DNA of 42,635 bases. Source: a virus. Position numbers and translations under genes: made by a program. A model generated the notes under the pieces. It saw nothing but the letters and a program-made list of their open reading frames with translations. It did not search any database and was not told the origin of the DNA. Each line of letters begins with the position of its first letter. The first letter of the stretch is position 1. The stretch is from the IMG/VR virus record IMGVR_UViG_3300047178_000172, positions 1 through 42,635 of that record; one strand, 5' to 3'. Positions 5,372-25,734 of this stretch are shown here, in pieces.

Positions 5372-5510
5372 GGGTCAATTTACACATTATAAAATGAAAA
5401 ATGACGAAATTGCAGCCGCTAATATGGCTGCGGTAGAGAATGTTCAGTTTTGCAATCGTATTATTAATATGGAGTATGACGACTACCTAAGAGCAATGGA
5501 GAAAAATTAA
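5259..5510 (+). CDS. Small helical protein overlapping portal
   Basis: An 83-residue ORF in a different frame from the portal C-terminus. The chosen ATG lies seven bases after AAGGA. The product is acidic and helical (EETQQFLAFLKTQVEEAKQ), with a later conserved-looking NRIINMEYDDYLRAME. Its stop overlaps the start of the GroES-like gene. The position suggests a head-assembly accessory role; no family is recognised. Confidence 0.7.
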   Translation: MELMSKEQWQGWRNQEETQQFLAFLKTQVEEAKQAWGEGQFTHYKMKNDEIAAANMAAVENVQFCNRIINMEYDDYLRAMEKN

Positions 5511-5923
5511 TGATGAAAATAGCTCAATATATTCTTTGGCCATACAAAAAAAAATCTATAAAAGAAAATCTTGGTGAAGTTCCAAAAAATAGTTTTTCTA
5601 ATATTTCCGGTTTTATTCCTCTCGGCCATCGCGTCCTAGTATTACCTGATGTAATAGAAAAGAAAACGGAAAGCGGAATTATCCTTGCGTTAGATACCGT
5701 TGGTCGAGAGGACATGGCTCAAATTAAAGGGACGGTAATTGCAATCGGCGATGGATGCTGGAAAGACACAACAACCTCAGATTGGGCAGCGCCTGGTGAT
5801 CGAATTGTATTTGGTAAATATTCTGGATTGGCATGGGAAGGTTCAGACGGGCAAAAATACCGAATTTTAAATGATTTAGATGTTGTGGGACTTATTACTG
5901 AGGGAAATGAAAATGGAAAATGA
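5510..5923 (+). CDS. GroES-like co-chaperonin (Cpn10)
   Basis: A 137-residue protein with the Cpn10 fold signature. The N-terminal strand motif is PLGHRVLVLPDVIEKKTESG (about residues 38-57), followed by GTVIAIGDG and the C-terminal GDRIVFGKYSGLAW with DLDVVGLI. Known phage relatives (T4 gp31 type) replace host GroES so that GroEL can fold the major capsid protein. An extra N-terminal segment of about 34 residues precedes the domain, unlike typical 95-residue GroES. It lies between portal and capsid genes, so a capsid-folding role is the natural inference. A second ATG three bases in is an equally good start. Confidence 0.85.
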   Translation: MMKIAQYILWPYKKKSIKENLGEVPKNSFSNISGFIPLGHRVLVLPDVIEKKTESGIILALDTVGREDMAQIKGTVIAIGDGCWKDTTTSDWAAPGDRIVFGKYSGLAWEGSDGQKYRILNDLDVVGLITEGNENGK

Positions 5924-9135: not shown

Positions 9136-9327
9136 ATGAATAAAAAAAATCGTCCTGACGTGCTAAAAAACTGTGCTAGTGTTGTGGGTGGTTCAGATCG
9201 CGGTAAAGTTATTTCGACTCCGTCAAGCGTAGTAAAAAATCCTGCTAGTGTCCCTGGTACGGATGCCGCGATGTATGCTTATTTAAAAGGGCCTGGAAAA
9301 AAGTGTTTTGACGGGGTTAAGTCATGA
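9136..9327 (+). CDS. Small hypothetical virion-region protein
   Basis: A 63-residue protein starting one base after the preceding stop. It has two related segments (NCASVVGGSD and NPASVPGTDA), a minor internal repeat. It overlaps the next gene by four bases, as expected for coupled translation. The function is unknown. Confidence 0.6.
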   Translation: MNKKNRPDVLKNCASVVGGSDRGKVISTPSSVVKNPASVPGTDAAMYAYLKGPGKKCFDGVKS

Positions 9328-10094
9328 CTATGCCAACCAGATACCCCGGCGGTATTTCTAACGCTGCTCCGTGGCAATTTTTCTCGGGGATGGGGGTTGC
9401 AAATCCTTTTTACTATCACTCTTTTGTGGACGACTTTGATATTGCGCCAGCCGAAAATAGCTGGGAAGCTTTTGGCACTGGATCTGGCACGCTTGCATCG
9501 GGTGATGGCGGCGTTACAACTCGAACGACGCTTGCGACGGTGGGCAGCATATCTGCTATCCAACGAGAAAGCGCGACTTTCCAGCCAGCAGTAGGCAAGA
9601 AGCTTTATTTTGTTACGAGAGTCACTTTAACGGATGTTGTGGACGCGGCTTTAGGTGTTGGGATTGTAACGTTAGCGGACACGCCTTTTACTCCGCCGCC
9701 TAATGGTATTTGGATTGGAATGGCATCAGGAGGTACTCAGTTAACATTGAATGTAGCCAACAATGGCACGATTACCACAAATAATTTTCCGACTTCGGCA
9801 TACACATTAGTTAACAACGTATCTTTTGATGTGGGCTTTATTGTAAAAGGCGGTACGGGTAAACAACCAGTACGAATTATTGGTGCGGTTGCGCCAACGT
9901 TGGTATCTTATATTCCCCAAAGTGGCACTGGGGCTATCGGATCTACGGATCGCGCACCAAGTATTGCCAGCACCGCACCGCTCCTTACGACATTACAAAA
10001 TACGGTTTTAGCTCCTACGCTAGCGGTTCAAACTGGGGTTAACTCCGTCATTACCGCTACCTTCGATTTCGCTGGTTGTTTCAGAGAGCGCTAA
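9324..10094 (+). CDS. Tandem virion paralogue 1 of 3
   Basis: A 256-residue beta-rich protein, first of three adjacent homologues. Shared landmarks are an N-terminal PTR(Y/F)P-G-SNAAPWQ segment, NPFYYHS with VDDFD, the centre KKLYFVTRV, PNGIWI, then TLVSY(I/V)PQSGTG, TAPLLTTLQ and the C-terminal GCFRER. The composition and length suggest a jelly-roll-like or decoration fold, so a capsid or appendage component is likely. The function is not established. Confidence 0.75.
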   Translation: MTMPTRYPGGISNAAPWQFFSGMGVANPFYYHSFVDDFDIAPAENSWEAFGTGSGTLASGDGGVTTRTTLATVGSISAIQRESATFQPAVGKKLYFVTRVTLTDVVDAALGVGIVTLADTPFTPPPNGIWIGMASGGTQLTLNVANNGTITTNNFPTSAYTLVNNVSFDVGFIVKGGTGKQPVRIIGAVAPTLVSYIPQSGTGAIGSTDRAPSIASTAPLLTTLQNTVLAPTLAVQTGVNSVITATFDFAGCFRER

Positions 10095-10095
10095 G

Positions 10096-10875
10096 ATGAC
10101 CGTACCCACACGTTTTCCAGAGGGGCTGTCTAATGCTGCCCCTTGGCAATTATTTTCAGAAATGGGTGTTACGAATCCATTTTACTATCACTCTTTGTTT
10201 GATGATTTTGATGTTTACCCGTTGGCAGGGACTATCACCGGCTGGGAAGTATTAGGAACGGGGACAAGAGCTTTTATTTCTGCGGATGGTGGTGTTGTGG
10301 AGCTAACGACTGCGGCGACGACGGGGTCTTATAACTATATCCAGCGCCAAACTTCGACTTTCCAACCGATAGCGGGTAAAAAACTTTATTTTGTTACGCG
10401 AGTTTCTTTAACCGACGTAATCGATTCCCAGCTTTTTGTTGGAATTGTACCCGTAGGGGATACGCCATCGGGTAGCGTGCCGAATGGTATTTGGATAACG
10501 AAAGCATTAGGTAGTACTCAACTATCACTCGTTGTTGTTAACAATAGCGTAATAACCATTAATCCTTTTCCGGCTTTGGCATATACTTTAACCAATAATG
10601 TGTTTATTGATGTCGGTTTTTCTATCGTTCCAGATAATATAACTGGAGCGAATGTTATTAGCGGTTCAGTCGCCCCAACATTGGTATCTTATGTCCCTCA
10701 AAGTGGTACGGGTACAAGCGGGTCAAAAGAGCGCTCTCCCGTTGTGGTAAGTACTGCGCCACTGCTTACCACATTGCAAGCTAATGTTTTAGCCCCAACG
10801 GTTGGATTACAAACTGAAAGTAACGTAGCGTATTCAGCAACTTTTGATTTTGTTGGTTGTTTCCGGGAGCGTTAA
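10096..10875 (+). CDS. Tandem virion paralogue 2 of 3
   Basis: A 259-residue homologue of the gene before it, separated by one base. It keeps the same landmarks (APWQLFSEMG, NPFYYHS, KKLYFVTRVSLTDVI, PNGIWI, SYVPQSGTG, FVGCFRER). It looks closer to the third copy than to the first (for example FPEG, SEMG and RSPVVVSTAPLL are shared), which suggests two successive duplications. Confidence 0.75.
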   Translation: MTVPTRFPEGLSNAAPWQLFSEMGVTNPFYYHSLFDDFDVYPLAGTITGWEVLGTGTRAFISADGGVVELTTAATTGSYNYIQRQTSTFQPIAGKKLYFVTRVSLTDVIDSQLFVGIVPVGDTPSGSVPNGIWITKALGSTQLSLVVVNNSVITINPFPALAYTLTNNVFIDVGFSIVPDNITGANVISGSVAPTLVSYVPQSGTGTSGSKERSPVVVSTAPLLTTLQANVLAPTVGLQTESNVAYSATFDFVGCFRER

Positions 10876-10877
10876 TC

Positions 10878-11651
10878 ATGGTTGCGCCTACACGTTTTCC
10901 AGAGGGGGTGACGAATGCAGCCCCTTGGCAGTTTTTTTCAGAAATGGGTAATGAAAACCCATTTTTTTATCATTCCATGGCGGATGATTTCGATATAGAG
11001 CCTAACAGTAGCGTTAATTGGGTAGCGTCTGGTGTCGGCATTATTAGTTTTAATTCGGCAGATGGTGGGACGGTTACTTTAGAGACATCTTCGACCGTTA
11101 CTTCTTATACGGCTATCCAGAGAAAGTCGGCTACTTTCCAGCCTATAATCGGAAAAAAGTTATTTTTTGTCGCTCGAATAGCTTTAACCGATGTGATTAA
11201 TTCTGTGTTTGTTGCTGGGCTTATACCTTTAGGCGACAACCCATTCGGTAGCGTACCGAATGGCATTTGGATAGCTAAGGCACCAGACAGTACTAATTTA
11301 TCTTTAGTTGTTATTAATAATAGTGTGATGACGGCTAATCCCTTCCCGACTTCGGCATATACCTTAACCAACAATACGTTTTTTGATATTGGTTTTTGCG
11401 TATGCCCTGATATTAAAACAGGGGGCACGCTGATTCAAGGTTCAATTGCCCCAACCTTGGTATCTTATGTGCCTCAAAGTGGCACGGGTACAGCAGACTC
11501 AACAGAGCGGTCTCCTGTTGTCGTAAGTACCGCACCGCTTCTTACGACATTGCAAAGTACGGTTTTAGCTCCCGTCGTGGGGGTGGAAACGGAGGATTCG
11601 GTTGTTAATTCTATAACGCTTGATTTTGTTGGCTGCTTCCGGGAGCGTTAA
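10878..11651 (+). CDS. Tandem virion paralogue 3 of 3
   Basis: A 257-residue homologue starting at the ATG two bases after the preceding stop; a longer start upstream would overlap the previous gene without need. It carries the family landmarks to the end (FVGCFRER). Differences concentrate in surface-like loops between the conserved strands, as expected for paralogues serving different contacts. Confidence 0.75.
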   Translation: MVAPTRFPEGVTNAAPWQFFSEMGNENPFFYHSMADDFDIEPNSSVNWVASGVGIISFNSADGGTVTLETSSTVTSYTAIQRKSATFQPIIGKKLFFVARIALTDVINSVFVAGLIPLGDNPFGSVPNGIWIAKAPDSTNLSLVVINNSVMTANPFPTSAYTLTNNTFFDIGFCVCPDIKTGGTLIQGSIAPTLVSYVPQSGTGTADSTERSPVVVSTAPLLTTLQSTVLAPVVGVETEDSVVNSITLDFVGCFRER

Positions 11652-11653
11652 TT

Positions 11654-12115
11654 ATGGCTGCGACCAATACAGTTCGTATTATGGAGAATGGGCCACGTAA
11701 TACGATATTATGGATTGAAGGAAATAACGGCGCAACAGGAGCGTCTCCCGGCGCTGGGGGTGCGGATTTAGCTTACACTACGATTCTTTTACCCGCTGGT
11801 GTAGGGTATGTTAATCGCGCGACTAAGGAGCATCCTACTGGGTTCCGTATTGATAAAATCGAATGGGATATACAAACAGAGCAACAAATGCGTGTAGATT
11901 TATGGTGGGATGCATCGCCTTCTGCTGACGCACAGATTGCTTATAGTTGTATTGGTCGTGCTAATAAATGTTTTAAAGATTTTGGTGGGTTGTATCCGCC
12001 AGCCGGAATCACGGGTAAGACAGGTGGTTTAGGACTGTCTACTACAGGGTCACCTACGACTTATGGAGCGTGGACAATTGTTCTGTATCTCGTTAATTTA
12101 CTTAATCCAGCGTAG
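11654..12115 (+). CDS. Virion-region protein of unknown function
   Basis: A 153-residue beta-rich, Gly-rich protein directly after the three paralogues. Strands such as YTTILLPAGVGYVNRA and the closing WTIVLYLVNLLNP suggest a small structural domain. No motif is recognised. Close spacing places it in the same virion transcript. Confidence 0.7.
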   Translation: MAATNTVRIMENGPRNTILWIEGNNGATGASPGAGGADLAYTTILLPAGVGYVNRATKEHPTGFRIDKIEWDIQTEQQMRVDLWWDASPSADAQIAYSCIGRANKCFKDFGGLYPPAGITGKTGGLGLSTTGSPTTYGAWTIVLYLVNLLNPA

Positions 12116-12180
12116 TATGGGCGCAGGGCTGTTATGTCGGTTGACGCTTTTATATCTTGTAGCAAGGGGCTAGGGAAACG

Positions 12181-12579
12181 ATGGGTCGCGCAGATTTTTA
12201 TAAAAAAGGTGAGTGGCTTGCGATCTGCGATGTATGCGGAATGAAATACCATTCTAATGACTTAAAAGAGCGTTGGGATGGTTTGATGTGTTGCCGCCAA
12301 GACTGGAATCCAAGGCAGCCACAAGATTTTGTACGTGGAATACCTGACCCACAGGCTATACCATGGTCTAGACCGGATGTACCGCCTAATTTTGTTTACA
12401 ATCCTGTAACGTGGGCGATAACAGATTTTTACGGTAACACCATGCGCGATTTTGCTAACGATATCGTAGTTGCTTTTCCAAATACGGTATTGCCACCGGG
12501 TGTATTTGGTTCTGTATGGTCTGGTATAGTCGGTTCGGAGTTGGAAATTCAAGACCAGCAAACGGTACTGGGGCCATAA
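12181..12579 (+). CDS. Zinc-ribbon-like phage protein
   Basis: A 132-residue protein with an N-terminal Cys cluster: CDVCG near residue 19 and CC near 39, about 18 residues apart, a probable zinc ribbon. This is followed by RQDWNPRQPQDFVRG and a Pro-rich linker. Similar N-termini occur in phage head-tail regions. AGGG precedes the ATG. A structural or assembly role is inferred from context. The 65 bases before it hold no convincing gene. Confidence 0.65.
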   Translation: MGRADFYKKGEWLAICDVCGMKYHSNDLKERWDGLMCCRQDWNPRQPQDFVRGIPDPQAIPWSRPDVPPNFVYNPVTWAITDFYGNTMRDFANDIVVAFPNTVLPPGVFGSVWSGIVGSELEIQDQQTVLGP

Positions 12580-13335
12580 GTGTCAATTAATTTTAGTCAA
12601 TTTCCTACGCCGACGCTTCCTATTAACGAGGGAGATTTTGTTGTTGGATACCAGAATCCGGGAACAGGTGGCAATCTTACGTTAGCCCAATATACTTTTG
12701 CGGAAATTGCGGAAGTCATAGGGGCTGGCTCGCCTTCTGGGCCAGCGGGGGGCGATCTTTCAGGAAACTACCCTAACCCAACGGTATCGGCGGTACACGT
12801 AACAACTGGCACGATAGATAATACGATAATTGGAGGCACGGTACCTAACGCAGCCAATTTTACCGATGTTAATGTATCGGGGAATTTTATTCCTTCGTCA
12901 TCAAATGGCATCACAGGAACCGTGGTAGGGGATAACGCTAACGCGGGTAGTGTAGGGGAGTATGCTAACGTTAGTACGGGATTTTCTAGCGTCCCCTTGG
13001 ACGTGGCAACTAATATCGGCGCTTTACCTTTATCCGCTGGGGATTGGGATGTTTGGGGTAGTTTGACTTTTGGGCAGTTCACTAATGCGACGGTAAGTTA
13101 TACGGTAGAGGCGGGTCTTTTTACTGACACGAGCGCGCCATTTGGTCCAGAAGGTATAATTCAAAGTACGATGGTATCTTTAGGGGGCGATTTTACGGCG
13201 GCCCTTCCTCTTATTCCGATAAGAGCTAATTTGAACGCTCCTTTTAATGTTTCTTTGGTTGCATCACAAACAGATTCTTCGTCAACGGGTCCGGCCAGTA
13301 TGATAGGTTATATTTATGCTAGAAGGCGCAGGTAA
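12580..13335 (+). CDS. Tail-fibre-like protein with AGDW module, 1 of 5
   Basis: A 251-residue protein starting with GTG right after the preceding stop. The N-terminal half has the fibre-type motif GPAGGDLSGNYPNPTVSAV (about 50-68). The C-terminal half is a beta module with GITGT(V)xGDN, LSAGDWDVWGSL (about 151-162), and the ending YIYARRRR. Four following genes share this C-terminal module. Likely a virion appendage or adhesin subunit, where the shared module could assemble and the N-terminus attach. Confidence 0.75.
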   Translation: MSINFSQFPTPTLPINEGDFVVGYQNPGTGGNLTLAQYTFAEIAEVIGAGSPSGPAGGDLSGNYPNPTVSAVHVTTGTIDNTIIGGTVPNAANFTDVNVSGNFIPSSSNGITGTVVGDNANAGSVGEYANVSTGFSSVPLDVATNIGALPLSAGDWDVWGSLTFGQFTNATVSYTVEAGLFTDTSAPFGPEGIIQSTMVSLGGDFTAALPLIPIRANLNAPFNVSLVASQTDSSSTGPASMIGYIYARRRR

Positions 13336-13805
13336 TGGCTAATACGGATGTAGTTGTATCAGGAACAATTTATCCTGCTACTACGAATGGGATAGCGGGA
13401 ACAACATTAGGGGATAACGCTGTTTCTGGCAGCGTTGGGGAATATATAGAGAAATCAATTGCTCCCGTAGTAATGCCTAATAGTACTCCGACCAGCCTTG
13501 GTGGTTATACTTTTCCAGCTGGGGATTGGGACATTTGGGGATCGGTATATACAAACTCCGCGGCTGGGATAACCGAGACGCGGATTGTTACAGGGTTATC
13601 TTTAAATACTTCTTTACCTTCGGTACCCAATATTGCCGAAATAACTGGAATTTCATCCGTTAATATTGGCCAAAGCCTTTCGGCACCTATGTTAAGGTTT
13701 AATTTTTCTACGCCGACTAACGTTTATTTAGTAGGATTTGTTAGTTTTACGGGGAGTGGATCAGAAACAATGGGCGGTGTAATTCGAGCCAGGAGAGTTA
13801 GATAA
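13335..13805 (+). CDS. Tail-fibre-like protein with AGDW module, 2 of 5
   Basis: A 156-residue protein consisting almost only of the shared module: NGIAGTTLGDNAVSGSVGEY, then PAGDWDIWGSVY and the ending VIRARRVR. Its ATG overlaps the previous stop (TAATG), so it is probably translated by coupling. It lacks the long N-terminal attachment part of copies 1 and 3. Confidence 0.75.
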   Translation: MANTDVVVSGTIYPATTNGIAGTTLGDNAVSGSVGEYIEKSIAPVVMPNSTPTSLGGYTFPAGDWDIWGSVYTNSAAGITETRIVTGLSLNTSLPSVPNIAEITGISSVNIGQSLSAPMLRFNFSTPTNVYLVGFVSFTGSGSETMGGVIRARRVR

Positions 13806-14842
13806 TGGCAAATCTTCTTTATGCTAATAACGCAGTTGGGACATTAGCCGCTTCTATCACTTCGGCTTCGACTTCTTTGGTTTTAGGCGCGGGGCAAGCC
13901 GTAGCATTTCCGGCGCCTACGGCGGGGCAATCGTTTTACGTAACGCTAACAGACGCCGCGACACAAACATTGAAAGAAATAGTTCAAGTTACAGCGGTCG
14001 CAGGAGATGTTTTTAGTATTATCCGAGCGCAAGATGGAACAACGGCGTTATCTTGGAATACAAACGATATTGTTCAGCAATGTGTTATTGCGCAAGAGTT
14101 ACGCGGATTTGAGAATGCTGCGGAAGGTATTTTCTTAGGTGATATTAGCGTAGGTGGTACTACTGCGATAACTGGAAATTTGAATGTAACTGGAAATGCG
14201 AATCTTTTTTCAAATTTGAATGTAACTGGAAATGCGAATCTTTTTTCAAATGCGAATCTAACTGGACATTTGGATGTAACTGGCACCGTACAAATTAACG
14301 CTAATACTGTAATTAATAGCACTTTAATTACAGGGAGCGGCATAGTTGATTACGGTAATTTAACGATGGGAAGTAGTTCCATTATCCCCAATACGACTTT
14401 AGGAATAGTTGGTACAACGCTGGGAGATAACGCTAGTGCAGGGCGTGTCGGTGAGTATCTTTTTTTTTCTCCGGTTAGTCCTATTGCTACGTATTCAGGG
14501 GTTGTAACTAACTTAGGAAGCATTACATTATCAGCCGGAGATTGGATGATTTATGCGATGGCTAGAACGCGACGGGATTTAGTTTCTCCGTTAACTGAAT
14601 ATGCGTTTATGGTGGGAGGGTCAACCGCACCAACTACTTTTGAATTTGGCCACTATGGTGCGATGAACGGAATCCGTAACGCCACGTTTCTTAGCGACTT
14701 TCCTGGGGTTGCGTTAGCCGCGCCTAAATTTCGTGTTAGCATAACTTCGGATACGGTATATTATCTTAACGCTAGTGTTATTTTTTCGAGCAGCGGTATA
14801 AATTATTTAGATGGAACTATATCGGCTAGAAGAATGAGGTAG
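13805..14842 (+). CDS. Tail-fibre-like protein with AGDW module, 3 of 5
   Basis: The longest copy, 345 residues. An N-terminal domain of about 110 residues (LYANNAVGTLAASITSASTS, a type seen at the base of phage fibres) leads into Asn-rich repeats (NLNVTGNANLFS, twice), then the module with GDNASAGRVGEY, SAGDWMIYAM and the ending ISARRMR. The repeats look like a beta-helical shaft. Probably the fibre that carries the attachment domain for the set. Confidence 0.78.
   Translation: MANLLYANNAVGTLAASITSASTSLVLGAGQAVAFPAPTAGQSFYVTLTDAATQTLKEIVQVTAVAGDVFSIIRAQDGTTALSWNTNDIVQQCVIAQELRGFENAAEGIFLGDISVGGTTAITGNLNVTGNANLFSNLNVTGNANLFSNANLTGHLDVTGTVQINANTVINSTLITGSGIVDYGNLTMGSSSIIPNTTLGIVGTTLGDNASAGRVGEYLFFSPVSPIATYSGVVTNLGSITLSAGDWMIYAMARTRRDLVSPLTEYAFMVGGSTAPTTFEFGHYGAMNGIRNATFLSDFPGVALAAPKFRVSITSDTVYYLNASVIFSSSGINYLDGTISARRMR
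14177..14248 (+). repeat. 36-bp tandem repeat in the fibre shaft
   Basis: Two exact 36-base units (14177-14212 and 14213-14248) encode NLNVTGNANLFS, with degenerate further units on both sides. In-frame repeats of this kind can lengthen or shorten a fibre shaft. Confidence 0.9.
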
Positions 14843-14846
14843 CAGG

Positions 14847-15209
14847 ATGACAATACCTGTATCGAGCGGACAACTAGTTGTCATAGGGAGTATTACAGTG
14901 CCTCCTGGGCACTGGGAAATTTTTGGTTCAGGGGGGTCGTATTTGCCGAGTTCTCCTCAAATAGTTGAAAACGTTCTTAGGCTCGGCATTTCGAATGTCA
15001 CGACAGGTTTTTCTGAACTATATAGCTTAGTAAATGGGGTAGAAAGCTACACATACACCACTGGAACGGGCAATGTGCTTTCAGCGCCGACTCTTTATCA
15101 TAATTCTACTAATACTGTTGTGTATTACCTTTTAGGGCAATCTTTTTTTGCAGGGCCTGGGACTACTAATTATTTATATGGAACGATATCCGCGAGAAGG
15201 ATAAGGTAG
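14847..15209 (+). CDS. Tail-fibre-like protein with AGDW module, 4 of 5
   Basis: A 120-residue, module-only copy: short strand start IPVSSGQLVVIGSITVPPGH, then HWEIFGSGGS in place of AGDW, and the ending ISARRIR. Four bases separate it from the preceding stop. It also lacks the GDNAxxGxVGEY segment, so it is a shortened version. Confidence 0.7.
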   Translation: MTIPVSSGQLVVIGSITVPPGHWEIFGSGGSYLPSSPQIVENVLRLGISNVTTGFSELYSLVNGVESYTYTTGTGNVLSAPTLYHNSTNTVVYYLLGQSFFAGPGTTNYLYGTISARRIR

Positions 15210-15213
15210 GAAA

Positions 15214-15591
15214 ATGCCAATAGTTGTATCTAGTGGACAAATACTCAATCTTGGAAACATCACACTTTCCCCTGGGGATTGGGATGTCGAAGGATATGCT
15301 ATATCGTATTCTACGTCGTCGAGCGTAATGGAAAATATATTTAGGGTCGGAATATCAGATACACTGACAACTTTTAATATTCCGTATGGTTTTAGTAAAA
15401 TATCGGGGATAATTACCAATTTCCCGACTGTGTACTTGCCTACAATAGGTAACGCTTTAGTCACGCCTACGTTACGTGTAAATATTACCACGACAGAAAC
15501 AAGATACATTTTAGCGCAATCTTTTTACACGGCCCCCTCTGGTCAATTTATCTCATTAGCTGGAAGTATATACGCTATAAGGCGTAGATAA
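15214..15591 (+). CDS. Tail-fibre-like protein with AGDW module, 5 of 5
   Basis: A 125-residue, module-only copy most similar in layout to copy 4 (opening PIVVSSGQILNLGNITLSPG). It has SPGDWDVEGYAIS and the ending IYAIRRR. A TAGGAAA spacer precedes the ATG and its stop overlaps the next start. Together with copy 4 it may form short caps or hetero-oligomers; this is inference. Confidence 0.7.
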   Translation: MPIVVSSGQILNLGNITLSPGDWDVEGYAISYSTSSSVMENIFRVGISDTLTTFNIPYGFSKISGIITNFPTVYLPTIGNALVTPTLRVNITTTETRYILAQSFYTAPSGQFISLAGSIYAIRRR

Positions 15592-16331
15592 TGGCGACCT
15601 ATAACTATTCGATTTCGCAGCAGTCTCTTATACAGGCTTCATTTCGTGTGATTGGTGTGTTCAATGATGACGCGCCGCCGCCGCAGTCGGACTTGGATAA
15701 TGCGGCTCAAGCATTAAACTTGATGATCAAGTATTGGATGAGTAAGAATTATCCTTTATGGTGTGTAACGGATCTTACTTTTACGCAGGTACAGGGGCAA
15801 ACTTCGTATTTAATTGGCCCGGATTCGACAACATCAGGATTGCAAGCGTATCGGGTATTGCGTATTCCAATGGCGCGAATTCAGTATGCTAATACGAGCG
15901 GAAATTATCCTTTGCAAGTGCCTTTAATCCAGCTTTCTAGGCAAGAATACGATCAAATGGGGCAAAAAACTGCGCAAGGCGTGCCGAATTCGTATTATTA
16001 CGACCCCCAATTACTAAATGGCGTATTGTATCTTTACTTAACGCCAGATGCGCAAGAAAACCAAATTATTTTAACTTGCCAGCGACCGATTGCGGATGTC
16101 ATTAACGCAACCGATAGCTTTGATTTTCCGATTGAGTGGTTGAACGCCTTGAAATTTGGGTTGGCAAAAGAACTTTTAACGGAGTATTTTGTTCCTGATT
16201 CTGTCGCGGCTCGTGTGGAGAGATACGCGGATAAATATCTTGACGACATGTTAAACTGGGATCAAGAAGAGGCAGCGACTTTCTTTACGCCAGACCGAAG
16301 AGGCTATTCTCGCCACGGATACAATGGATGA
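15591..16331 (+). CDS. Head-tail adaptor, P22 gp4-like
   Basis: A 246-residue protein with the features of podovirus tail accessory factors: QQSLIQASFRVIGVFNDDAP at the start, AAQALNLMIKYWMSKNYPLW (about 43-62), and a late FPIEWLNALKFGLAKELLTE helix. Such proteins bind below the portal and extend the DNA channel. The next gene overlaps by eight bases and encodes the companion stabilisation protein, which supports the call. Confidence 0.82.
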   Translation: MATYNYSISQQSLIQASFRVIGVFNDDAPPPQSDLDNAAQALNLMIKYWMSKNYPLWCVTDLTFTQVQGQTSYLIGPDSTTSGLQAYRVLRIPMARIQYANTSGNYPLQVPLIQLSRQEYDQMGQKTAQGVPNSYYYDPQLLNGVLYLYLTPDAQENQIILTCQRPIADVINATDSFDFPIEWLNALKFGLAKELLTEYFVPDSVAARVERYADKYLDDMLNWDQEEAATFFTPDRRGYSRHGYNG

Positions 16332-18000
16332 AATTCCGCGCATTCCTTTTGCGCAAACTATTTCAACTCGGGATTCGACGATGATGGCGGATGCCATCAT
16401 GTATAACTATTTCGCCACAAAAAACTCAGATGGCCGCGTATTTTCAGAAAGACGTTTTGGTTTTCAGTCTATTTATACTGCGGCACCAGGCATGGGGTTA
16501 GGACTTTTCCAATTCAAAAACTCAATTCTTTCTATTATTGGCACGACGTTTTATGTTAATGGTGTTTCTACCGGTACGGTAGATAATACTAGCCCATACC
16601 AATTCACTTTAACTGGTGTTGGTGCTACGGGAGTGTTTTTAAAGAATAACACCCATGCCTATACATGGGATGGTTCTGCTTTAGTCCAAGTTACTGATGC
16701 TAATTACCCTTCTGTCACGGCACCAGGCGTAGCTTGGTTAGATGGATATGTTTTTGTGCAGACACCTGGCGGAATACTCGCCAATAGTAACCTTAACACG
16801 CCAGCGGTATGGGGTGCGCTAAATACCATTAGCGGGAGTCTTTCTTCTGACAATGGCGCGGCAATTACTAGGTTATATAACTATGTAGTTAGTTTTGGGG
16901 TGTACTCAACGACTTTTTTTTACGATGCTGGTAACTCGATAGGTTCGCCATTACTGCCTAATATTTCAGCAGAGTTAAATATCGGCTGCGCGGTAGGGAC
17001 GTCCGTTGTGGCATCTGAAAACACTGTATTTTGGATAGGGCAAACGCATCAAAAAGGTCGTCGTGTTTACATGTTTGAAGGGCTGACACCTAAGCCTATT
17101 TCAGACGAATTCATAGATAAGATTTTAAATCAGGATTCGTTAAACAACGTTTATGCATATTATTTAGAGATTAATGGCGCAGCGCTATATGTTTTGACTT
17201 TAACTAATAGTAATTGCACCTTAGTGTACAACTTAGTTTCTGGGATGTGGAGCCGTTGGAGCAGCTCTTCTTTGGGTAGCTCTCGGGTGGCGGATTCGGC
17301 TACTCAAGTGGGTACTAAGGTAATAGTTGTATTGCCAGGACATGGCTTTTCAAATCCTACCATAGTACTTGTTACGAGCGAAGATTCGGCTGGTATGTAT
17401 CGGGGTGTTTTTGTTATAGACGTTATAGATGTTAACACTTTTAGCTATACCGTTGGAAACGTTTTAATCGGAGGTGTTTCTGGGGGAATCAATTCTTCGC
17501 CTATTAATCGCTTAGCGATCAACAATGAATTTGTGATTTCTGGGGTGATTGGTGGTCTAGGAACGTTAACAATTACGCCTTTTGTGCAAAATTATTTTGC
17601 TCCCGTGTATTATGCCTATGCTAACAACATCGATTATTTATTAGATGTGGCGAATGGAATGACCTATATTATGCAACAAGATATTGCTAATGATAATGGT
17701 AATTTTATTTATGGGTTGCTTAGAACCAATGCGGGAGATTTTGGAACGAATAATCAAAAGTTCTTCCCGAGTTTACAAATTATTGCGGATAAAGTCCCTG
17801 CTTATGCTTATTTAGGCTATTCGGATAATGATTTTTATAGTTATAGCTCGTTTAGGCCGATTAGCTTGAATGCTAACCGGGCATTGCTAAGGCGATGTGG
17901 CGCAGCGCGCCGCCGCGCATTTTGCTTGCTTTATTATGGGGGCTACGCAGCCAGGTTCTACCAATTGGAGCTTCCTGACCTTGTCGTTAGTTCGCAATGA
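16324..18000 (+). CDS. Packaged-DNA stabilisation protein, P22 gp10-like
   Basis: A 558-residue beta-rich protein. In the P22 type it plugs the portal channel and supports the tail. It has repeated blades with Thr/Ser/Gly strands, the motif FWIGQTHQKGRRVYMFEG (about 237-254), and VYNLVSGMWSRW (about 302-313), typical of these tail proteins. The C-terminus runs to LELPDLVVSSQ. It overlaps its neighbours at both ends (eight and four bases), a tight head-completion operon. Confidence 0.8.
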   Translation: MDEIPRIPFAQTISTRDSTMMADAIMYNYFATKNSDGRVFSERRFGFQSIYTAAPGMGLGLFQFKNSILSIIGTTFYVNGVSTGTVDNTSPYQFTLTGVGATGVFLKNNTHAYTWDGSALVQVTDANYPSVTAPGVAWLDGYVFVQTPGGILANSNLNTPAVWGALNTISGSLSSDNGAAITRLYNYVVSFGVYSTTFFYDAGNSIGSPLLPNISAELNIGCAVGTSVVASENTVFWIGQTHQKGRRVYMFEGLTPKPISDEFIDKILNQDSLNNVYAYYLEINGAALYVLTLTNSNCTLVYNLVSGMWSRWSSSSLGSSRVADSATQVGTKVIVVLPGHGFSNPTIVLVTSEDSAGMYRGVFVIDVIDVNTFSYTVGNVLIGGVSGGINSSPINRLAINNEFVISGVIGGLGTLTITPFVQNYFAPVYYAYANNIDYLLDVANGMTYIMQQDIANDNGNFIYGLLRTNAGDFGTNNQKFFPSLQIIADKVPAYAYLGYSDNDFYSYSSFRPISLNANRALLRRCGAARRRAFCLLYYGGYAARFYQLELPDLVVSSQ

Positions 18001-18434
18001 GGTTTCTCGTTGAAAACTACGAGGATGTTATTGCTGAAATGCGGCTATTGCATCCTGCTCATTGGGAAGAGGTTGGCATCGAAGAACCTTTAAGCATGGA
18101 TTATGTTAAATATGATGAGTTAGCAAAAGGTGGAGCTTTTATCTTAGTGACTGCGAGAGAAAAAAACAAGCTAGTAGGGTATCATTTAGTTATTGTTTCT
18201 AAGTCTTTGCGCCAGAAAGATAAGCTTTGCGGTTTTACGGATATATTTTACTTATCCACGGATTTTAGAAAAGGGTTCAACGGGATAAGGTTTCTTAAGT
18301 TTACCATGGGCGTTTTGCGAGATGCGGGTGTTTATCGATTCCTTACGACGGCGACAACACGCAATCCTTTTTATAGGATTTTAGAAAGACTAGGTTTTGT
18401 TGAGTTAGAGCGTGTTTTTACTAAGGTCCTGTAA
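17997..18434 (+). CDS. GNAT-like acetyltransferase
   Basis: A 145-residue protein with the GNAT pattern: strands around ILVTARE-KNKLVGYHLVIV, then DIFYLSTDFRKGFNGIRFLK (an acetyl-CoA-loop-like region near 85-100, but without the full Q/R-x-x-G-x-G/A motif), and NPFYRILERLGFVELE at the end. Similar proteins occur in this genome position in podoviruses. The substrate is unknown; a virion or host protein is possible. Confidence 0.7.
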   Translation: MRFLVENYEDVIAEMRLLHPAHWEEVGIEEPLSMDYVKYDELAKGGAFILVTAREKNKLVGYHLVIVSKSLRQKDKLCGFTDIFYLSTDFRKGFNGIRFLKFTMGVLRDAGVYRFLTTATTRNPFYRILERLGFVELERVFTKVL

Positions 18435-23672: not shown

Positions 23673-24278
23673 TTAAAGCCCTTTTGCGTATGTTAAATTA
23701 ATGCGCGTTAATTTCGCGCGTGTTAATTTCGCGCGTGTTAAATCCGCGTATGTTAAATCCGAGTCTGTTAAATCCGAGTCTGTTAAATCCGAGTCTGTTA
23801 AATTTGCGCCTATTAGTTTTGCCTTTTTTAAAATTGTGTTTATTAAATTTGTCTTTTCTAAATTCGATTTTGTTAAATTTGCGCCCTCTAAATCCGAGCC
23901 CTCTAAATTCCCCTCTTTTAAATTCACCTCTTTTAAATTTGCGACCTTTAAGATTGAGCCTTTTAAATTCACTCGTTTTAAATTCGAGCTTGCCAAATTC
24001 GAGCCTGCAAAATTCGAGCCTGCCAAATTCGAGCCTATAAACTTCGCGTCGAATAAATTTGCGCCTGCAAAATTCGAGCCTGCTAAATTCGCGCCTGCAA
24101 AATTCGCGCCTCTTAATCTGGCGTATTTTAAATTCGAGCCTGCTAAATTCGAGCCTGCCAAATCCACCCACATTAAATCAACTTTTTTAATTACTGCCAA
24201 CTCTAAAGCTTTGCGTAGTGAGATATCGCTTTCACTATAAAAAAGTACCCGCTTATATATATCGTATATGACTGTCAT
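23673..24278 (-). CDS. Pentapeptide-repeat protein
   Basis: A 201-residue protein. After an N-terminal leader of about 35 residues (TVIYDIYKRVLFYSESDISL), about 32 repeats of A(N/D)(L/F)xx run to the end (for example SNLAGSNLKY, TDSDLTDSDL). Such repeats form a right-handed beta helix; Qnr/MfpA relatives mimic DNA and bind gyrase, but no known member is recognisable here. Repeats fall in blocks (AGSNLAGSN, TDSDLTDSD, TRAKLTRAK), so it grew by repeat duplication. Start: AAGGACTTTAAATC precedes the ATG. Two related genes lie near 35.4-36.0 kb. Confidence 0.85.
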   Translation of the reverse strand: MTVIYDIYKRVLFYSESDISLRKALELAVIKKVDLMWVDLAGSNLAGSNLKYARLRGANFAGANLAGSNFAGANLFDAKFIGSNLAGSNFAGSNLASSNLKRVNLKGSILKVANLKEVNLKEGNLEGSDLEGANLTKSNLEKTNLINTILKKAKLIGANLTDSDLTDSDLTDSDLTYADLTRAKLTRAKLTRINLTYAKGL

Positions 24279-24420: not shown

Positions 24421-25734
24421 ATGAACATTCTTGTTTTAGATCAAATTGGGTTGTCTCTTGATTTTTGCATGCGCTGCCAAGAGATGGGGCATGCTATTCG
24501 GTTATGGGTGCAGCCTAACGAAAAAAATAAACACATTTCAGAGATAGGTTCAGGCTTTGTGCCTAAAGTGAAGGATTGGCGTGCGCACATGCCTTGGGCA
24601 CATCTTATTGTAACAACGGATAATTCGACTCTTTTGAATTATTTGGAACCTTATCGGAAAAAGGGCTATCCCATATTTGGGAGTAATCCTCTTGGTGCGG
24701 CGCTAGAGCTTGATCGTCAGAGGGGGCAAGCGATTTTCAAGAAAGCGGGGATCAAAGTCATGCCAGCTAACGAGTTTAGCGACTATGACCGGGCAATCGC
24801 TTTTGTTAAAAAAAATCCGCAGCGATGGGTGTGCAAGCCCAATGGCGACGCTGATAAAGCGCTGTCGTATGTCTCGGAATCTCCGAGAGATATGATCTTC
24901 ATGTTGGAGCGATGGAAGGTTGAAAATCCTCAAAATCAAGGATTTATTCTCCAACCATTTATGAATGGAATTGAATTGGCGGTGGGCGGCTGGTTTGGCT
25001 CTAAAGGGTGGTCTCAGTATTTTCTTGAGAATTGGGAGCACAAAAAACTTTTTCCGGGTGAGCACGGCGTCGCTACTGGCGAACAAGGCACGGTTGTGCG
25101 CTATACAAAAACTTCAAAGCTAGCGGATAAGCTGCTTATTCCATTAACTTCTTATCTTCACTCAATCGATTATCGTGGCTATTTTGATATGGCGGCAATA
25201 ATCGATGAAGAGGGTACGCCTTGGCCGTTGGAAGCCACTGCGCGATTTGGTTGGCCATGCAAAATTATTCAGGATACCTTGCACGTTGGTTGCCCTGCGC
25301 AATGGATGCTAGACTTACTTAATGGCGAAGACACGCTGGAAGTTAGCGACGAAATTGCTATCGGCGTGGTGGTTACGATAGGTGATTACCCTTTTACCGA
25401 ATACACCGGTAGAGATTTTAGTGGTTATCCCATTTACGACGCCGATTCGCTGTTGATGGAAGATATCCATTTATGCGAAGTTAAGATGGGAACGGCACCA
25501 GATAATGAGGGTAATTTTTCAGCGGTGCCAGTGACATGTGGCGACTATGTTTTAATCGCTACAGGGACAGATTATTCGGTAATGGGCGCTCAAATACGCG
25601 CAAATCGGGCTTTAAAAAAAGTAGAAATACCGGCTTCGCCAGGGTGGCGCGATGATATTGGGGAACGCTTAAAAAATCAACTGCCTAAACTTCAAGAATT
25701 AGGTTATTGCTTAGATTGGAAATATGAGTCTTAA
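24421..25734 (+). CDS. ATP-grasp ligase, PurD (GAR synthetase)-like
   Basis: A 437-residue protein related to phosphoribosylamine-glycine ligase. It shows a nucleotide-binding lysine motif (WVCKPNGDADKALSYV, about 137-152), the strand FILQPFMNGIELAVGG, a His/Gly segment HGVATGEQGTVVRY standing where GARS has its NTGGMG loop, and the metal-binding end PLEATARFGWPCK (about 266-278). ATP-grasp enzymes join an acid to an amine. With no other purine genes nearby, simple purine synthesis is unlikely to be the whole story; DNA-base or small-molecule modification is a possible role. It lies between ejection and lysis genes. Confidence 0.82.
   Translation: MNILVLDQIGLSLDFCMRCQEMGHAIRLWVQPNEKNKHISEIGSGFVPKVKDWRAHMPWAHLIVTTDNSTLLNYLEPYRKKGYPIFGSNPLGAALELDRQRGQAIFKKAGIKVMPANEFSDYDRAIAFVKKNPQRWVCKPNGDADKALSYVSESPRDMIFMLERWKVENPQNQGFILQPFMNGIELAVGGWFGSKGWSQYFLENWEHKKLFPGEHGVATGEQGTVVRYTKTSKLADKLLIPLTSYLHSIDYRGYFDMAAIIDEEGTPWPLEATARFGWPCKIIQDTLHVGCPAQWMLDLLNGEDTLEVSDEIAIGVVVTIGDYPFTEYTGRDFSGYPIYDADSLLMEDIHLCEVKMGTAPDNEGNFSAVPVTCGDYVLIATGTDYSVMGAQIRANRALKKVEIPASPGWRDDIGERLKNQLPKLQELGYCLDWKYES

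Follow-up and report, generated by a model that had tools for sequence, protein, structure and literature searches.

The host range of a phage is set by its fibre tips. Among solved proteins, the closest to the locus described here is the tail fibre gp47 of Pectobacterium phage PhiM1 (genus Phimunavirus, Corkvirinae; PDB 8vbx, 18 chains), of which six trimeric fibres are placed at the adaptor (PMC11440229). The window, meaning the whole stretch of DNA that was analyzed, is an environmental viral record of 42,635 bases in which five tandem genes share a C-terminal module of about 115 residues. When a profile of this module was compared with solved structures, gp47 was the only protein matched well, at its very end (residues 396-534, E 2.4e-24), where it closes with ARRVR. 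Unlike the window genes, gp47 has a T7-like shaft and is encoded by one gene per genome, with no tip-only copies seen.

The module was also found in PHROG 11393 'tail fiber protein', whose C-terminal 110-180 profile positions span it in four of the five window genes. Members of this family are long (profile 538), whereas the window adds proteins of the last fifth only. Judged from these matches, the module is not new: PHROG 11393 and PhiM1 gp47 both have it as their C-terminal domain. It is likewise located at the C-terminus of gp19 from Burkholderia phage BcepC6B and orf35 from Xanthomonas phage PBR31 (66.9% and 55.3% to the family consensus), but these single-copy genes lie by lysis genes, and a signal-peptide-like N-terminus replaces the fibre base. 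Since the module is already known, the value of this locus lies in its stand-alone copies.

The module genes and their genome setting

The gene order of the window is that of a podovirus-like phage, with the following features.

1730: terminase
3203: portal
8016: coat
9324-15591: appendage region, followed by the gp4-like adaptor (15591) and Hc3 (16324)
9324..11651, plus strand: three tandem paralogues (9324-10094, 10096-10875, 10875-11651) of about 258 aa each, 61-66% identity
12580..13335, plus strand: fibre A, 251 aa; base 'MSINFSQFPTPTLP...VVGYQ', GDLSGNYPNP linker, neck and C-terminal tip module
13335..13805, plus strand: o1, tip-only, 156 aa; short neck (NGIAGTTLGDNAVSGSVGEY) and module, without base
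13805..14842, plus strand: fibre B, 345 aa; base 'MANLLYANNAVGTLAASIT...' (residues 1-105), shaft repeats, neck and tip module
14847..15209, plus strand: o2, tip-only, 120 aa; module alone, without base or neck
15214..15591, plus strand: o3, tip-only, 125 aa; module alone, without base or neck
15591..16331, plus strand: gp4-like tail adaptor (PHROG 12985, E 1.5e-23), annotated 'tail adaptor' in related records
16324..18000, plus strand: head-closure Hc3 / gp10-like stabilisation protein (PHROG 578, E 3.1e-38; 9vyg 'Stabilization protein', E 1.1e-5)
up to 23671: ejection proteins
about 26400: lysis genes

A GroES-like co-chaperonin gene is located between portal and coat (5510-5923), and relatives have one too. 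An acetyltransferase-like gene (17997-18434) separates Hc3 from the ejection genes; MW202796 and phage PBR31 also have an annotated acetyltransferase near this position. The ejection genes are followed by a pentapeptide-repeat protein on the minus strand (23673-24278) and then by an ATP-grasp protein (24421-25734) weakly like phosphoribosylglycinamide synthetase, with an ATP-grasp-like gene at the matching place in relatives. The paralogue family at 9324-11651 has three copies here versus one per relative, which makes it a second appendage-region gene amplified in the same phage. Foldseek matched its low-confidence model (pLDDT 60) to legume-lectin-like sandwiches, which suggests a lectin-like fold.

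The sequence-only reading had described five tandem genes at 12580-15591 with one C-terminal module, and we found both positions and motifs exactly as claimed. All five genes carry (A/P)G(D/H)W followed by A(R/I)RxR, and in each of them the module ends at the last residue. The first motif is AGDW in three of the five genes, PGHW in o2 and PGDW in o3, and the final five residues are, in gene order, ARRRR, ARRVR, ARRMR, ARRIR and AIRRR. With the 156-aa gene as query against this genome, the other four were retrieved at E = 2.6e-22, 3.7e-19, 7e-8 and 2.6e-6; by these scores, the similarity among the five genes is far beyond chance. The C-terminus of PHROG 11393 matches o1, fibre B, o2 and o3 (E = 1.3e-10, 5.8e-6, 3.1e-4 and 1e-3), while no match to it was found for fibre A, and no Pfam family scored above its curated cut-off in any of the five.

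The N-termini do range as widely as had been read from the letters, from a full base (fibre B) and a short base (fibre A) to a neck only (o1) and none (o2 and o3, which begin at about module residue 3). An N-terminal base joined to a shaft is present in fibre B, occurs with a reduced shaft in fibre A, and is absent from o1, o2 and o3; these three were therefore classed as stand-alone tip domains, not tail fibres. The stop codon of fibre A and the start codon of o1 overlap (TAATG). No signal peptide is present in any of the window's five module proteins. The five genes are immediately followed by the gp4-like adaptor and Hc3 genes, in agreement with the earlier placement beside head-tail connector genes.

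To describe the fold, o2 was modelled as a monomer, giving a complete eight-stranded sandwich (jelly roll) with a mean pLDDT of 86.1 and a pTM of 0.80. The model matched the cyanophage A4 portal-tail chain 9k09_A (TM 0.66), the A-1(L) short tail fibre domain 8ke9_A (0.56), and chlamydial Pgp3 and IBDV VP2 (TM about 0.5). The best of these matches are trimeric virus or adhesin jelly rolls, and the moderate scores point to fold class rather than kinship; at such modest scores, the model has a TNF/C1q-like or viral jelly-roll knob fold. The tie between module and structure, which had been left to modelling, is borne out by the confident stand-alone o2 model together with the sequence match to a solved trimeric fibre.

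Conserved bases and exchanged tips in relatives

In relatives, the gene order is a zinc-motif gene, fibre A, fibre B and adaptor. The adaptor, with homologues in 13 IMG/VR contigs at 78-82% identity, directly follows fibre B there by synteny and lies directly 3' of o3 here. Fibre A, fibre B and adaptor are adjacent in every complete relative stretch (L010, L011, L014, L020, L021, L056), which leaves no room for extra genes at this position. Comparing copy number in relatives had been proposed as a check, and its outcome was negative, since no relative with the same gene order carries tip-only copies. Their absence from every syntenic relative indicates that the tip-only genes are dispensable for the group.

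Identity of the fibre B base is 64-77% across ten viral relatives and drops to 48% in MW202796, which is more distant; the fibre A base shows 52-64% identity in nine relatives. Fibre B residues 1-135 match 8jov_1 'Putative tail fiber protein' (E 8.8e-14), which we take to be from podophage GP4. This protein is homologous to the fibre B base and present in 18 chains, as expected for six trimers, but the match ends before the tip and its C-terminus is different. The tips of relatives vary: some carry the ARRxR module on both fibres, and others have a SINRVP/SIHKIP end or a glycine-rich tip ending in YEYS. Such a pairing of conserved base and exchanged tip is typical of host-binding fibres. At 251 aa, fibre A here is about half as long as in relatives, where it mostly has 480-565 aa, indicating a much reduced shaft in the window.

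By homology, A and B appear to be two ordinary podovirus tail fibres. They would form trimers held by their N-termini at the portal/adaptor region, and their jelly-roll tips would contact the host surface, as position, variability and the solved relative suggest.

In the distant relative MW202796, the region between coat and adaptor (L008:5389-11506) is likewise rich in appendage genes, with a GP4 fibre I gp80-like gene, a fibre B homologue, a 176-aa C1q-like gene and a gp53-like tip gene. The C1q-like gene, next to the fibre B homologue there, was rejected as a homologue; no relation could be detected by sequence, and it is a parallel instead.

Occurrence, origin and expression of the tip-only genes

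To survey the module, we scanned viral contigs (IMG/VR) and confirmed it in at least 586 of them; a genome scan gave 36, and a consensus query of GenBank phages gave 86 records with 88 places. The 151 loci that were compared are the best-scoring relatives (for viral contigs, the best 80 of at least 586) with 3-10 kb flanks, so that rare tip-only genes elsewhere could be missed. In these loci the module forms the last residues of the ORF in 162 of 166 modules with a checkable end. One module was present in 141 loci, two in 7, three in 2, and five only in the window. The three shortest of 160 complete module ORFs are the window's 120, 125 and 156 aa, and the next is 174. Across the contigs, at least 586 in number, the module nearly always sits at the end of a longer fibre protein.

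No tip-only copies were found outside the window among the 151 loci. The 120-aa gene had no match in GenBank phages, and the 120-aa and 125-aa genes gave none and one distant match, respectively, in viral contigs; these searches thus revealed tip-only genes in no near relative. Among the papers covered by the search, nothing useful came up on stand-alone tips, exported fibres or cyanophage A4. Taken together, the module family is known, and stand-alone copies amplified within a lineage are an uncommon form of it.

A signal-peptide-like N-terminus (basic, hydrophobic, AxA) was observed in 32 of 141 distinct module-bearing fibre proteins versus 36 of 1397 other ORFs with a length of 150 aa or more, counted by a simple rule with a rough control. 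Examples are L006:11392-12465, L016:5831-7675, L016:7948-9186, L053, L060, L102 and others. Such export signals would not be expected on fibre-like proteins if these are parts of the virion.

The tips of fibre B, o2 and o3 form one clade (support 100/98; IQ-TREE, 57 rows) apart from the tips of relatives, which indicates that o2 and o3, located directly behind fibre B, come from tandem duplication in this lineage. The tree prefers fibre B with o2 (99/71), and o2 with o3 is not rejected (p-AU 0.46). Gene o1 lies directly behind fibre A and shares its neck motif; grouping these two is neither supported nor rejected (p-AU 0.51), and a single clade of all five is not rejected (p-AU 0.55). In each case the 3' end of a fibre gene would have been duplicated in tandem and then gained its own start. 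The homologous start of o2 and o3 suggests that the tip-only state is probably older than their split.

The predicted Shine-Dalgarno duplexes are -6.9 kcal/mol for o1, -6.9 for o2 and -8.4 for o3, while most late genes range from -2.9 to -10.0. Each of these sites, from which o1-o3 would be translated, is formed or flanked by the A/G-rich ARRxR and stop codons that close the gene before it. The o2 and o3 proteins are 42% identical, and their codon positions 1/2/3 differ at 44/38/56%, with position 2 changed less often than position 3 (p = 0.006); stop codons are absent. When neutral drift to this divergence was simulated in a simple way, 0 of 3000 pairs stayed open. On the other hand, the codon usage of o3 is only weakly like that of other late genes. 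The selection argument would also be weaker if the bases of o2 and o3 were lost independently, as some of the divergence would then be older than the tip-only state. Whether the copies are silent had been raised as a challenge to the sequence-only reading; the ribosome-binding sites and intact frames speak against this, and o1-o3 are probably translated and under selection.

The same data bear on the idea that o1-o3 are relics, in which a new tip was recombined onto each fibre and the old tip was pushed downstream and kept without function. Tips are clearly exchanged between relatives, the relatives live without the extra genes, and fibre A is truncated in L016 (88 aa), an instance of a gene fragment at this locus. 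However, the frames are intact at 54% DNA identity, with good ribosome-binding sites and codon-position constraint, and fibre B, o2 and o3 are mutually nearest kin, as expected from duplication and not from the arrival of a foreign tip. We regard relics as distinctly improbable.

The copies might also serve as a bank of donors that recombine into fibre A or B and switch host range, as their tandem position beside the fibre genes and the tip exchange documented in the group could suggest. Long shared identical DNA for such switching was not found between any two of the five genes, where the longest identical stretch is 16 bp, no inversion or cassette system was noticed along the way, and the copies carry their own starts. 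A recombination-donor store is unlikely on this account, and we give it only a very small probability.

Possible roles of the tip-only proteins

The sequence-only reading had proposed a bank of interchangeable appendage subunits. Its evolutionary part stands as reasonable from the comparisons above, with appendage genes beside the connector, a shared tip and tip change over evolution; its stronger part, in which the tip-only products would be virion subunits, form mixed trimers or be swapped for one another within a virion or population, is conjectural. We consider it fairly probable that the locus consists of tail fibres A and B plus three extra tips, used likeliest as extra adhesin subunits. 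Here, o1-o3 would fold independently into knobs, probably as trimers, and would broaden or reinforce host binding while joined to the fibres or the virion through putative contacts. This use as attached adhesins is the weakest step of the proposal, and nothing suggestive of an attachment site was found in o2 or o3.

Alternatively, o1-o3 could be made but left out of virions and released at lysis as decoys or receptor blockers, binding receptors on debris or on the host. Such free knobs would fit proteins that lack base and shaft and, for o2, a domain that is complete on its own in the model, and the signal-peptide-like N-termini on module proteins of other phages, including the relative L016, hint at non-virion uses. 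Nevertheless, none of the window's five proteins has a signal peptide, and a phage that blocked receptors on uninfected hosts would act to its own detriment, so that we hold this role improbable.

Whether the tip-only proteins constitute a distinct kind, as knobs without base or shaft that are mixed into fibre ends or act as soluble off-virion binders, appears doubtful. If true, mixing such knobs into fibre ends would give several specificities per virion. Several intact, diverged tip-only genes beside two fibres would be a natural test of whether tips can act in trans or be mixed, a question relevant to host-range change in phages.

Precedents for the extra-adhesin reading are BppL of lactococcal phage TP901-1 and gp38 of T-even phages, which are separate tip adhesins with a defined attachment region. 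In contrast to these, no such region is visible in o2 or o3. By analogy, though, they offer a works-like precedent for this locus, namely a separate small receptor-binding protein encoded beside a fibre or baseplate gene.
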